Assembly (NCBI GenBank): GCA_012735575.1
Contig: JAAYGY010000068.1
Coordinates: forward strand, 1 to 57,339
Direction: 5' to 3'
DNA length: 57,339 nt
From: Clostridiales bacterium
Lineage (GTDB): Bacteria; Bacillota; Clostridia; Caldicoprobacterales; UBA3941
Shown here: positions 14,169 to 18,709 of the stretch, piece after piece
How the letters are laid out: each line of letters opens with the position of its first letter
How positions within the stretch are numbered: the first letter of the stretch is position 1
Position numbers and translations under genes: made by a program
Notes under the pieces: generated by a model
The model's input: only the letters and a program-made list of their open reading frames with translations
What the model was told of the DNA's origin: nothing
Database searches by the model: none

Positions 14169-15203
14169 TTGGGTAAGAATATTCGTCATATAATTATATT
14201 GATACTGGTGCTTTTCCTGTTTACTGGGTGCAGTACAATGGGAGAAAAAATTAAATATTATGATGAAAATAGAAAGGATAGCAGTCCGCCGGCCCAGGAA
14301 AAGGTATTATCTGTAGATCCCGATCCTAGACCAGAGGAGCAAACTATCACAATTTATTTTAAACATAGGTATTCCGACTATTTAGTCCCGGAAGTTAGAA
14401 CTGCGGTTCGTGACAAACAATCCTGGGATCAGCTGGTGGTAGAGGAAATATTAAAGGGACCTAGTCAGCATGATAGAGTAGCCATATTACCTCCAGAAGT
14501 CAGAGTACTGGATGTAACCCGTAAAGGGGATATTGTATTTGTAAACTTTAGCCAGGAGTTTACTGGGGATATTAACTTATCCAATATACCTGGCAAAGAG
14601 GATATACCAGAGGAAAAAAGAGACGAGGTCGCAGCAGAAATGAAACTGCTAGGTATATATTCCATAGTCAATTCCCTGACAGAGTTGGAGGGGATCAATC
14701 AGGTTAAGTTTTTGGTAGAGAACAGGGCAATATCCTATACTGATATGGGCGAAAACTTGGCATCCTTGCTTTTCCCCGAAATTGAAACACCTGAGGAGGC
14801 GCAATTGACTAATCAAATGATGGTGGCTTTACCCAGAAATAGAGCCTACATCCTAACTCCTGCCATGGCAGTGGAGACAGTTTTCAAAGGTTTGCTAGGT
14901 GAGCCTAAGTGGGATACTGTCTATTCCCTACTATCAAAGGAGATGGCCAACAAAAACCAACTTCCTTCAAAAGAGGAATTGGCCAGTTTATGGTCAGCTC
15001 TAGTCAGTGGAATTGAGCTGGATGACAAGTTTATTTTGGATGAAGAGATAAAACCGGATGGCAGAGCGTTTGTTACAGTATCCTATACCATAAACTTTGC
15101 ATCGGGGAAAAAAGAAAAAATGCATAGAGATACCATTGTTGTTGTGAATGAAGATAATATTTGGAAGGTGAAGCTGCCCGAATTTGTGAGTGACTTCCGT
15201 TGA
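14169..15203 (+). CDS. GerMN-domain lipoprotein (C-terminal DUF-like extension)
   Basis: A 344-residue lipoprotein with lipobox LFTGC and Cys21 as the acylated residue. One GerMN domain lies at about 55-195 (ITIYFKHRYSDYLVPEVR, then EEILKGPS and IYSIVNSLTELEGI). A C-terminal domain of about 110 residues resembles a small beta-sheet ligand-binding module. GerMN domains occur in the spore germination protein GerM and in lipoproteins encoded beside sensor kinases. The start is TTG 14169 behind GGAGGTGAG. It follows the kinase gene by 120 bases, where TATAAT boxes at 14105 and 14117 may mark a separate promoter. Confidence 0.85.
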   Translation: MGKNIRHIIILILVLFLFTGCSTMGEKIKYYDENRKDSSPPAQEKVLSVDPDPRPEEQTITIYFKHRYSDYLVPEVRTAVRDKQSWDQLVVEEILKGPSQHDRVAILPPEVRVLDVTRKGDIVFVNFSQEFTGDINLSNIPGKEDIPEEKRDEVAAEMKLLGIYSIVNSLTELEGINQVKFLVENRAISYTDMGENLASLLFPEIETPEEAQLTNQMMVALPRNRAYILTPAMAVETVFKGLLGEPKWDTVYSLLSKEMANKNQLPSKEELASLWSALVSGIELDDKFILDEEIKPDGRAFVTVSYTINFASGKKEKMHRDTIVVVNEDNIWKVKLPEFVSDFR

Positions 15204-15222
15204 TAGTACAGGGGGAGATATC

Positions 15223-16806
15223 TTGAAAAGAATAGTATTAACTTGCCTAGCAATTTTACTCATGTACAGTTCTGTTGGATGTAGGATAGCTGGGAAGGCG
15301 CCTGAAGGATTAATAAAAAAGGATGCCGATGAATTAGATAAAGAAACCGAATTAAATTCAACCTTGATGATAGAAGAAAATAGTGATGAAACTAATGATA
15401 ATACCAATACTGTGAAACAGGAAAATATTTCATTATATTTTTGGAACAAGGAGAATAATAGGCTAATTTGTGAGACTCGAAATATAATAACAACAGATGG
15501 CAACTTAACTTTGAATGACATAGTTGTAGCCCTGTTGAAGGGACCCGATTCAAAGGATCTGCAACCTGTTATTCCAAAAGAAACTAAAATTATTGATATA
15601 GGCCAAACAGATAATATAGTAACTATTAACCTTACTGAAGACTTTCTGAATGCAGAAGATTTATTGGTTGCACGTTCCGCCTTGGTTAATACTCTGGCTG
15701 AGAGGCAAGGGGTAAAATATGTTAAAATACTTATTAACGGTAAAGAATTGACTAATGATGGAACCCTGGAAGGTGAACCCTTGGGTGTACTAAGCAAGAC
15801 AACCAATAATATTGATGAACTGTTAGCGGCTAAGAATCGTCAGGAAGAAGAGGATACCGTTAAGCAGGTTAACAGAGAGCTATTCTTTAGGGATTATAGA
15901 GGTCAATATCTCTTGTCAGAAGTAAGAACTATTAATGTAAAGAATGGTGGTATAGCAAGAGCTATAGTAGAGGAACTAATAAAAGGTCCGGTAGAAACAT
16001 CTACAGGTCTTTATCCTGTCATTCCCCAGGGAACTCAGTTATTGGATATTAACTTAGTTGAGAATGAAGACCAGGATTCAAAAGTGATTGCCCTTTATTT
16101 TTCAAAGGAGCTAAAAGATCCTTTCCTGGATAAGGTTGTAACTTCCAGAGGAAATAGAAAGGTGGCACCCCAAGGAGTTCAGGAAAAACTTGATGAAATA
16201 AAGGAAAAAGAAACTGTTATTCTAAGCGCTATAGTATATAGTTTAACTGGTTTAAATAATATCTCTGGAGTAAAAATATATTATCAGGATAGAAATGGAA
16301 ATTATACTGATGCCCCGTTGTATAGCATTGATTTAAGAAAGCCTTTAACTACTAGACAATTTCCTAACAAGTTGGGAAGGAAAATTAAGATTTACTTTGC
16401 CAATGAAAATTCTACTCACTTAGTACCCGATTATAGAGCTATGAGTAGAGAAAATGTTCAGATAGCAAAGACTATTATAGATGAATTGATATTAGGACCT
16501 CGTGAAGATACAGGGCAGAGAGCGGTTATACCCTCTAATATATCTAGGGGAGATATAAAGGTATGGATGGATGATAACAATACTAGAGTAATAGTAGATC
16601 TTCCAGCCAAGCTAGACGGTGATAAAATGGGCAGTACTGGCGCTTTGATGACCTTGTACGCTATGGTTAACTCCTTAACTGATCCAGCTAACACTTCAAA
16701 TATAAAAGAAGTACAGTTTTTAGTGGACGGTAAAGTTGTAAAGACCTTTGGAAATCTGGAGTTCAGTGAACCTTTTATAAGAAATCCCGCTATAATTGAA
16801 GAATAG
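15223..16806 (+). CDS. Lipoprotein with three GerMN domains
   Basis: A 527-residue lipoprotein; Cys20 in YSSVGC is the probable acylation site. Three GerMN repeats follow an acidic linker, at about 60-180, 215-350 and 375-510. Each contains an ELIKGP-like or LILGPRED helix-turn and a VNSLT- or YSLTGLNN-type segment. The start is TTG 15223 behind GGGGGAG; the ATG reading from 15190 would place an implausible N-terminus before the signal peptide. It lies 19 bases after the first GerMN gene and is surely co-transcribed. Its stop directly abuts the truncated TPP riboswitch. Confidence 0.82.
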   Translation: MKRIVLTCLAILLMYSSVGCRIAGKAPEGLIKKDADELDKETELNSTLMIEENSDETNDNTNTVKQENISLYFWNKENNRLICETRNIITTDGNLTLNDIVVALLKGPDSKDLQPVIPKETKIIDIGQTDNIVTINLTEDFLNAEDLLVARSALVNTLAERQGVKYVKILINGKELTNDGTLEGEPLGVLSKTTNNIDELLAAKNRQEEEDTVKQVNRELFFRDYRGQYLLSEVRTINVKNGGIARAIVEELIKGPVETSTGLYPVIPQGTQLLDINLVENEDQDSKVIALYFSKELKDPFLDKVVTSRGNRKVAPQGVQEKLDEIKEKETVILSAIVYSLTGLNNISGVKIYYQDRNGNYTDAPLYSIDLRKPLTTRQFPNKLGRKIKIYFANENSTHLVPDYRAMSRENVQIAKTIIDELILGPREDTGQRAVIPSNISRGDIKVWMDDNNTRVIVDLPAKLDGDKMGSTGALMTLYAMVNSLTDPANTSNIKEVQFLVDGKVVKTFGNLEFSEPFIRNPAIIEE

Positions 16807-16843
16807 GCACAACCTGATCTGGGTAACGCCAGTGGGGAAATGA
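16807..16843 (+). pseudogene. Truncated TPP riboswitch (3' half only)
   Basis: Directly after the GerMN stop comes AACCTGATCTGGGTAACG followed by CCAGTGGGGAAA. This matches the conserved 3' half of the thiamine pyrophosphate riboswitch, including the CTGG/CCAG hairpin. The 5' half, with GGGGTGC and CTGAGA, is absent; the space is occupied by the end of the GerMN gene. Without it TPP cannot be bound, so this is a relic. The terminator and thiT-like start behind it keep the usual order. Confidence 0.78.
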
Positions 16844-16854
16844 CTTTAGAAAAT

Positions 16855-16890
16855 AACTGCATGCCTTTAGTGCTGGTATGCAGTTTTTTT
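16855..16890 (+). terminator. Terminator, formerly the TPP riboswitch expression platform
   Basis: AACTGCATGCC (16855-16865) pairs with GGTATGCAGTT (16875-16885), with one mismatch, followed by a T run. It now probably terminates the two-component/GerMN operon. Confidence 0.8.
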
Positions 16891-16922
16891 ATTTTCCTAT
16901 TATATAAAATGAGAGATTTTTG

Positions 16923-17000
16923 ATGCTCAATAAAACCAGAATGTTGGTTGAGGCAGGTTTACTTATGGCTGTAGCTCAAATCTTAAGCTATTCTGTTTAA
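16923..17000 (+). pseudogene. Truncated thiT-like thiamine ECF transporter gene
   Basis: ATG 16923 opens 25 codons beginning MLNKTRMLVEAGLLMA and ending QILSYSV before TAA. This matches my recollection of the N-terminal helix of ThiT, the substrate-binding S component of the energy-coupling-factor thiamine transporter. Beyond this point no thiT-like reading frame continues. Together with the half riboswitch and terminator just upstream, it marks a decayed thiamine-controlled thiT locus. The product would be one membrane helix and inactive. Confidence 0.72.
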
Positions 17001-17067
17001 TCATGTTGAAATGTATAAGAGCAATACCACTTTGGATAAAAGATAATCCAGGGGCAGGACAGTATAA

Positions 17068-17096
17068 TTGATTTTACAATAGCATACTGATATAAT
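17068..17096 (+). promoter_or_regulatory. Promoter of the phosphohexomutase gene
   Basis: TTGATT (17068-17073), 17 bases, TATAAT (17091-17096), about 70 bases before the start codon. Confidence 0.75.
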
Positions 17097-17164: not shown

Positions 17165-18709
17165 ATGTTAAACAGGGACTGGAAAGCATTGCAAAATGGC
17201 AGCGATATCAGGGGAGTAGCCATTGAAGGAGTGGAAGGTGAGGAAGTAAATCTTACTGACGAAGTTGTGGAAAGACTTGGTTCAGCATTTGGCGCATGGT
17301 TAAGTGAAAAAACTAAGAAAGCGGGCAGTGATCTGAGAGTTGCCATAGGTACAGATTCAAGGCTGTCAGCATCCAGGGTTAAAAATGCAGCTATTAAAGG
17401 TCTTAACCTAGTCGGGGTTAAGGTATTCGATTGTGGCATGGCATCAACCCCTGCCATGTTTATGACAACTGTTACCCCTGGTTATGAATATGATGGAGCC
17501 ATAATGGTGACAGCTAGCCATTTACCCTTTAACAGGAATGGATTAAAATTTTTCACCAGAGAAGGAGGATTAGAAAGTAGGGACATAACTGATATACTTA
17601 TAAAGGCTCAAAACAAAGACTATACTGAGGCACAGATCCAAGGAAGTGTTAGTACCACAGATTTCATTTCAGTATACGCAGAAGGGTTGGTAGATAAGAT
17701 ACGACGAGAAGTAAATAATCCTGATAATTATGATCGTCCTCTTGAAGGCTTTAAGATAATAGTAGACGCTGGTAATGGTGCGGGCGGATTTTATGTAGAT
17801 AAGGTATTAGTACCTTTAGGAGCAGATACTACAGGCAGCCAATTTTTAGATCCTGACGGTACTTTTCCCAATCATCAACCAAACCCTGAAGATAAAGAAG
17901 CCATGAATGCTATTGTTAAAGCAGTCAAAGAAAGCAAGGCCGATTTTGGTATTATATTTGATGCTGATGTTGATCGGGCTGGAGCAGTTGACAGAAATGG
18001 TAATGATATAAACAGAAACAGGCTTATAGCTCTTATGTCAGCAATTGTTTTAGAGAAACATCCGGGTACTACTATAGTAACAGACTCCATAACCTCTACA
18101 GGACTTAAAGCCTTTATTGAAGAGGAATTAGGAGGCATACATCATAGATTTAAACGGGGATACAAAAACGTTATAATCGAGGCTATCAGACTTAATAATG
18201 AGGGCAGGGAGTGTCATTTGGCTATTGAGACCTCAGGACATGGTGCCCTAAAGGAAAACTATTTTCTAGATGATGGCGCTTATCTAATAACCACAATCCT
18301 AATAAAGATGGCGAGGATGAAAATCTATGAGAATAAAGGGATAGAAACCCTTATTGAGAATCTGGCTGAACCGGCAGAGGCCAAAGAATTCAGAATGAAT
18401 CTTTTAGTAGAGGATTTTAGTGAATACGGCCACAGCATTTTAAAGGATTTAGAGGCTTATGCTCAGCAATCGGAGGATTGGGAAATTGCTCCTGACAACT
18501 ATGAAGGGATACGGGTATCCTTTGATTCTGACAATGGGGATGGCTGGTTTTTACTCCGCATGTCCTTACACGATCCTTTAATGCCCCTTAATATAGAGTC
18601 CAACACCACAGGAGGCGTAAGAAAAATCGCATCAAAACTTCTGCCTTTTTTGAGTAAATATGATGGGCTGGACGTTAGTACATTAAATAGCTATGTTAAT
18701 GAGATATAA
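17165..18709 (+). CDS. Phosphoglucomutase/phosphomannomutase family protein
   Basis: Enzymes of this family interconvert hexose-1- and hexose-6-phosphates through a phosphoserine. The 514-residue product has the phosphoserine loop TASHLPFNRNG with Ser118, the metal loop DADVDR starting at Asp266, the sugar-binding loop ETSGHGALKEN, and a C-terminal phosphate-binding domain. Substrate preference (glucose, mannose or another) cannot be read from the sequence. ATG 17165 follows GGGAGGAA. It has its own promoter and terminator and is monocistronic. Confidence 0.9.
   Translation: MLNRDWKALQNGSDIRGVAIEGVEGEEVNLTDEVVERLGSAFGAWLSEKTKKAGSDLRVAIGTDSRLSASRVKNAAIKGLNLVGVKVFDCGMASTPAMFMTTVTPGYEYDGAIMVTASHLPFNRNGLKFFTREGGLESRDITDILIKAQNKDYTEAQIQGSVSTTDFISVYAEGLVDKIRREVNNPDNYDRPLEGFKIIVDAGNGAGGFYVDKVLVPLGADTTGSQFLDPDGTFPNHQPNPEDKEAMNAIVKAVKESKADFGIIFDADVDRAGAVDRNGNDINRNRLIALMSAIVLEKHPGTTIVTDSITSTGLKAFIEEELGGIHHRFKRGYKNVIIEAIRLNNEGRECHLAIETSGHGALKENYFLDDGAYLITTILIKMARMKIYENKGIETLIENLAEPAEAKEFRMNLLVEDFSEYGHSILKDLEAYAQQSEDWEIAPDNYEGIRVSFDSDNGDGWFLLRMSLHDPLMPLNIESNTTGGVRKIASKLLPFLSKYDGLDVSTLNSYVNEI

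Follow-up and report, generated by a model that had tools for sequence, protein, structure and literature searches.

Between two protein-coding genes of the window (the whole stretch of 57,339 nucleotides analysed here) lies a short interval in which half of a TPP riboswitch, an intrinsic terminator and the first codons of the thiamine transporter gene thiT follow each other. The question raised by this locus is whether these pieces are a working device, an artefact of assembly or the remains of a unit that has been lost. The window corresponds to contig C42 of a genome assembly of 2.59 Mb and 105 contigs, the only one analysed from its species. In our view the locus is, with a probability of about 0.85, a recently wrecked thiT gene of the standard type under TPP-riboswitch control, which a second thiT in the same genome made dispensable and whose terminator has been left unopposed.

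The gene upstream of the interval (15190–16806, plus strand) encodes a spore-germination-type protein with a GerMN (Germane) domain (Pfam PF10646, 7.5e-48), and the fossil region begins directly behind its stop at 16806. The gene downstream (17165–18709, plus strand) belongs by Pfam to the phosphoglucomutase/phosphomannomutase family. The GerMN protein served as query against 60 related genomes. The window genome (G000) and G001–G005 belong to one family; the family and kinship labels of the relatives are those of the search tool. The sole member of the same genus among the 60 is G001, a metagenome-assembled “Clostridiales bacterium” (contig JAAYKZ010000046.1), hereafter the sister. Its gene order is that of the window (histidine kinase, GerM and GerMN, then the phosphoglucomutase family and TypA), its GerMN gene is 79% identical, and the downstream flank common to both encodes 514 aa in each. 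Between GerMN and the phosphoglucomutase-family gene the sister has a promoter-like site (TTGACA-17-TAATAT in a promoter scan), a full TPP riboswitch (72.5 bits to RF00059), a terminator and a complete ThiT (150 bits to PF09515, and over the cut-off of TIGR02357). The DNA at 16807–17164 matches the sister with E = 3e-34, and the match falls precisely on the riboswitch, terminator and thiT start. Because the sister holds an intact orthologous unit between the same two genes, positions 16811–16991 are identified, by sequence comparison, as the fossil of a TPP riboswitch-thiT unit with losses to either side of an intact terminator; homology together with synteny excludes chance. The comparison with a sister genome, as recommended by the initial annotation (made from the letters of the window), thus revealed the intact unit at this very site.

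The aptamer remnant (16811–16841, plus strand; AACCTGATCTGGGTAACGCCAGTGGGGAAAT) begins 5 nt past the GerMN stop with AACCTGATCTGGGTAACG...CCAGTGGGGAAA, and 29 of its 31 aligned positions, apart from a 2-nt gap, are identical to the sister. When aligned with ten intact homologues, the 3' half of the aptamer, ACCUGAUCUGG..UAAUgCCAGCGUAGGGA (P4/P5, the pyrophosphate side), is recognisable, with two substitutions and one 2-nt deletion (TAAT to TAAC, GTAGGG to GTGGGG, and CCAGCG to CCA--G), all at sites that are otherwise conserved in the ten. The 5' half with GGGG..GC and CUGAGA (P2/P3, the pyrimidine side) is absent from the window and has been deleted relative to the sister; no CTGAGA occurs between 15698, inside GerMN, and 17333. 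The RF00059 match (16788–16855) reaches 17.6 bits against a gathering cut-off of 54.3 and involves only the 3' (P4/P5) side, and the covariance model alone is insufficient to call the element a TPP riboswitch; at the gathering threshold, Rfam finds only a single tRNA in the whole window and nothing at the fossil site. Taken together, the weak match, the missing CTGAGA and the sister alignment agree with the earlier proposal of a riboswitch 3' half behind the GerMN stop with its 5' half gone. A ligand-dependent change of expression is predicted to be absent for this element. Other Rfam matches with E <10, among them SNORA79, RsaE and DLEU2_1, were rejected, as they do not reach their cut-offs and owe their scores to the terminator hairpin or to A+T-rich sequence. 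DNA comparison within the own genome gave no second copy of the remnant.

The terminator (16855–16890, plus strand) is intact, as was first suggested. It has an 11-bp stem, AACTGCATGCC/GGTATGCAGTT at 16855–16865/16875–16885, a 9-nt loop and seven T, and its predicted fold (-15.9 to -16 kcal/mol) places a stable stem directly before the T run, as in intrinsic terminators. A simple promoter/terminator scanner overlooks it, since the loop limit of that program is 8 nt. Relative to the homologous terminator of the sister, AACTGCATGCC-loop-GGTGTGCAGTTTTTTT, all 11 stem pairs still pair; one G-U pair has become A-U, and a twelfth, outer G-U pair is lost. The hairpin energies are alike (-15.9 kcal/mol in the fossil, -12.5 to -18.1 kcal/mol in the intact set).

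The antiterminator is in a different state. Folding of the sister RNA to the terminator loop predicts a structure in which AGCGUAGGG pairs with the loop sequence CCUUUUUAUGCU and CAGUU with the 5' arm AACUG, mutually exclusive both with the closed aptamer and with the terminator. The linker in the window (16842–16854, plus strand), once one side of this structure, is identical to the sister at 6 of 13 positions, and 8 of the 14 antiterminator pairs survive, compared with 11 of 11 in the terminator core stem. For the duplex of aptamer tail and linker with terminator arm and loop we obtained -4.6 kcal/mol in the fossil, which does not surpass shuffled sequence; in ten intact relatives, of which only some are clearly above the shuffled level, it was -8.0 to -15.1 kcal/mol. 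Because the duplex is near that level in several relatives too, the energy comparison should be read as supporting evidence and not as proof.

A working switch of the sister type would respond to ample TPP with transcription termination, which turns thiT off; when TPP is lacking, AGCGUAGGG on the aptamer 3' side and the CAGUU behind it would pair with the loop and the 5' arm of the terminator, which then could not form. The point changes and the 2-nt deletion in the window appear to have broken this antiterminator while the 11-bp stem was kept, and for this reason the terminator is predicted to be always on and independent of thiamine. Transcripts running on from GerMN would then stop at 16884–16890 whatever the thiamine level.

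Downstream of the terminator, a short frame (16923–17000, plus strand; translation MLNKTRMLVEAGLLMAVAQILSYSV) opens with 23 codons (16923–16991) that share ancestry with the S-type thiT in the sister, followed by two further codons and a stop. It is 88% identical to the sister ThiT over 25 residues (E = 1.9e-5 in the genome search), at the same position and with the same flanks. The initial annotation had taken all 25 codons for the start of ThiT; the assignment to ThiT holds, but the homologous stretch is only the first 23 codons, and the last two do not align with the thiT start. Pfam gave no match for the 25 residues alone, which are too short, and a search of the own genome for the ThiT family (PF09515) gave none at the fossil site, where the full S-component domain is absent. 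The ribosome-binding site GGAGAG of the sister reads TGAGAG in the window. Positions 16988–17044 (plus strand) are probably what is left of the thiT 3' end with its trailer, which a deletion has brought up against codon 22/23, as suggested by a weak alignment to the last codons of the sister thiT plus TGGATAAAA that 55 of 2000 shuffles score as high; the 40 nt past codon 23, aligned to thiT without the trailer, are unconvincing (122 of 300 shuffles as high).

The interval between the two flanking genes measures 984 nt in the sister and 358 nt in the window, so that about 630 bp have been lost. At the first junction (16807–16810, plus strand) 4 nt stand in place of about 121 nt that hold the promoter and the aptamer 5' half in the sister; the second deletion starts at codon 23 of thiT and extends almost to the end of the gene; and at the third junction (17045–17057, plus strand) the terminator that trails thiT in the sister, ATGCGTGCC..GGTACGCATTTTTT, is missing. 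The idea of two deletions flanking the terminator is right in that the unit was cut on both sides, but three losses are needed relative to the sister, the third being that of the post-thiT terminator. In sum, the window has lost the promoter along with half of the sensor, the bulk of thiT and the terminator behind it.

An assembly in 105 contigs, and a species represented by a single genome, invite the objection that the locus is an intact unit misassembled or misbinned with deletions in a metagenome-derived genome. We regard such an artefact as very improbable: the conserved aptamer positions carry substitutions and a 2-nt indel relative to the sister, the ribosome-binding site is lost, three separate deletions would be required, and the flanking genes align with the sister without a break at the usual divergence.

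The wreck appears to be young. The 23 thiT codons differ from the sister by 10 synonymous and 2 nonsynonymous changes, the latter over 54 nonsynonymous sites, while dS in the neighbouring genes is near 1.0–1.35, and the window branch has accumulated some 0.55 neutral changes per site. Long neutral drift would leave many more amino-acid changes, and by rough arithmetic the loss of thiT would date to about the last tenth to sixth of that branch. The few nonsynonymous changes and the persistence of the open frame could also be read as signs of function, either as a truncated sensor RNA or as a 25-residue membrane peptide. This seems highly unlikely to us, since the low number of changes is accounted for by recency, a scan gave no promoter-like site before the remnant, the ribosome-binding site is degraded, and the aptamer lacks the whole P2/P3 side that is needed for binding the pyrimidine of TPP.

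That the unit is a wreck does not mean that the organism has given up thiamine uptake. The initial annotation had suggested that uptake was lost or moved in this lineage; it was moved, not lost. The search for another thiT, advised at the same time, led to the only TPP riboswitch of the own genome over the cut-off (70 bits) and the only full ThiT, both on contig C105, where three genes for an ABC transporter come next, with a binding protein of the NMT1/THI5-like group (L002, G000:C105, 2028–5352). Orthologous ABC genes with a binding protein of 72% identity lie elsewhere in two relatives (L144, G003:C35; L145, G005:C8), and no TPP riboswitch was detected before the ABC genes at these two sites. 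ThiC was not found in G000–G005, ThiE gave no match over the cut-off in the same genomes, and thiamine pyrophosphokinase was matched in all of them, in three only through a short partial match. The family members appear to be thiamine auxotrophs dependent on ThiT.

In a ThiT tree the C105 copy groups with those of G003, G004 and G005 (X-type; support of 100/97 for the family group), and that of the sister is placed with families f2 and f3 (S-type), having 61–64% identity to f2 versus about 40% to the X-type. It is likely that the genus ancestor had both types, and that the window lineage lost S and the sister X in a recent reciprocal loss of redundant transporters; the sister assembly, which has no X-type thiT, is 95% complete and may have missed the gene. 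Thiamine uptake continues by a different ThiT lineage, which is replacement by reciprocal loss and not a loss of function. The presence of the second TPP-thiT unit on C105 would have made the S-type copy dispensable.

Several observations on thiT in the relatives may be added. In G003:C84 and G005:C73 (L008, L009, L037, L038) an X-type TPP-thiT unit follows GerMN directly and precedes typA, and in G004 it is located elsewhere, not behind GerMN. The interval between GerMN and typA has therefore housed TPP-thiT units of both ThiT lineages, which may be either coincidence or exchange at a shared site. G002 (2.1 Mb, 92% complete) has thiamine pyrophosphokinase and no TPP riboswitch, ThiT, ThiC or ThiE over the cut-off, and its thiamine genes may be absent from the incomplete assembly. 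A weak PF09515 match in the window genome (G000:C28:9506–9871; 23.1 bits, below the cut-off) lies in a 206-residue frame that is probably another ECF S-component, and an X-type-like thiT match with one in-frame TGA (G026:C94:2815–3279) may represent a second thiT pseudogene, this time in a relative.

The surroundings of the unit seem to have changed in another respect. A promoter-like site of the next gene (TTGATT-17-TATAAT; 17068–17096, plus strand) is conserved in the sister and in G002, where it stands directly before typA. In the genus of the window, the phosphoglucomutase/phosphomannomutase-family gene sits between this conserved promoter and typA. Since G002, G003, G004 and G005 have no such gene between GerMN and typA (loci including L036 of G002 and L039 of G004), it seems, from gene order, to have been inserted behind the typA promoter in this genus.

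There remains the use of the surviving terminator, which was initially described as reused to end the GerMN operon. Such reuse is plausible, as the riboswitch terminator is the sole recognisable one in the window between GerMN and the promoter at 17068–17096. In the sister too, however, no terminator separates GerMN from the riboswitch, which means that read-through from GerMN already met the riboswitch terminator when the unit was intact, and the loss happened too recently for conservation of the stem to prove selection. In G002, which has no TPP or thiT match, the terminator behind GerMN resembles the post-thiT terminator of the sister, and the segment around it aligns with the sister post-thiT segment at a score reached by none of 300 shuffles. 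Accordingly, the TPP-thiT unit seems to sit between GerMN and what was once the GerMN terminator. The third deletion removed that old terminator, which leaves the riboswitch terminator as the only one before 17068–17096, and this status fits with retention for use.

One may go further and propose that selection keeps the terminator for the GerMN operon and that loss of the antiterminator was favoured as it made termination unconditional. The kept stem pairs, with one G-U turned into A-U, the lack of any other recognised terminator before the next promoter, and G002, which without the unit has its own GerMN terminator of the kind that the window has lost, all speak for this. We consider it possible but rather doubtful: with a decay so recent, an untouched 22-nt stem is expected without selection and is no evidence for it, and the sharing of the terminator with GerMN is older than the decay. 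The wider proposal, that a conditional terminator became unconditional through loss of sensor and antiterminator and is now selected as the sole terminator of the GerMN operon, beside the reciprocal loss of ThiT types, is likewise tentative; if true, an expression platform would here be caught in the course of its exaptation. A recently decayed unit is the reading that we prefer.

In comparison with the TPP riboswitch (THI element, RF00059) and terminator that precede thiT in the sister and in the f2 and f3 relatives, the window shares the sequence of the aptamer 3' half and a homologous terminator, and keeps the order and spacing of aptamer, terminator and thiT start. It differs in having no promoter and no aptamer 5' half, a broken antiterminator and only 23 codons, and is predicted to be unable to sense TPP. 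ThiT (YuaJ) is the S-component of an ECF thiamine transporter (PF09515, TIGR02357); the first 23 codons in the window are homologous to the S-type gene of the sister, while the rest is deleted and the active copy in the genome is the X-type on C105. RSthiT of Lactococcus lactis is a TPP riboswitch directly upstream of thiT that was shown to be thiamine-responsive (PMC8862789), whereas the element described here is a remnant. In the case of DUR31 in Candida and Saccharomyces, one thiamine transporter displaces another, and the TPP riboswitch disappears together with the lost gene (PMC5997356); the yeast riboswitch, however, is in an intron and its loss is inferred from absence, while in the window the wreck is still in place. 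We found no bacterial precedent for riboswitch remnants or decay in the open literature, which is not proof that none exists.

Riboswitch loss is usually inferred from absence, and here the wreck and its intact sister orthologue let the order and kind of the damage be read. With this locus one can ask in a concrete setting whether expression platforms persist after their sensors are gone, and annotators are warned that half aptamers before good terminators can be fossils and not new RNA classes. It is a regulatory pseudogene in a good state of preservation, whose terminator survives; events of this kind are to be expected, and the clear intermediate with an intact sister makes it useful. For the family, redundant TPP-thiT units sorted in opposite ways among thiamine auxotrophs represent ordinary gene-content evolution.
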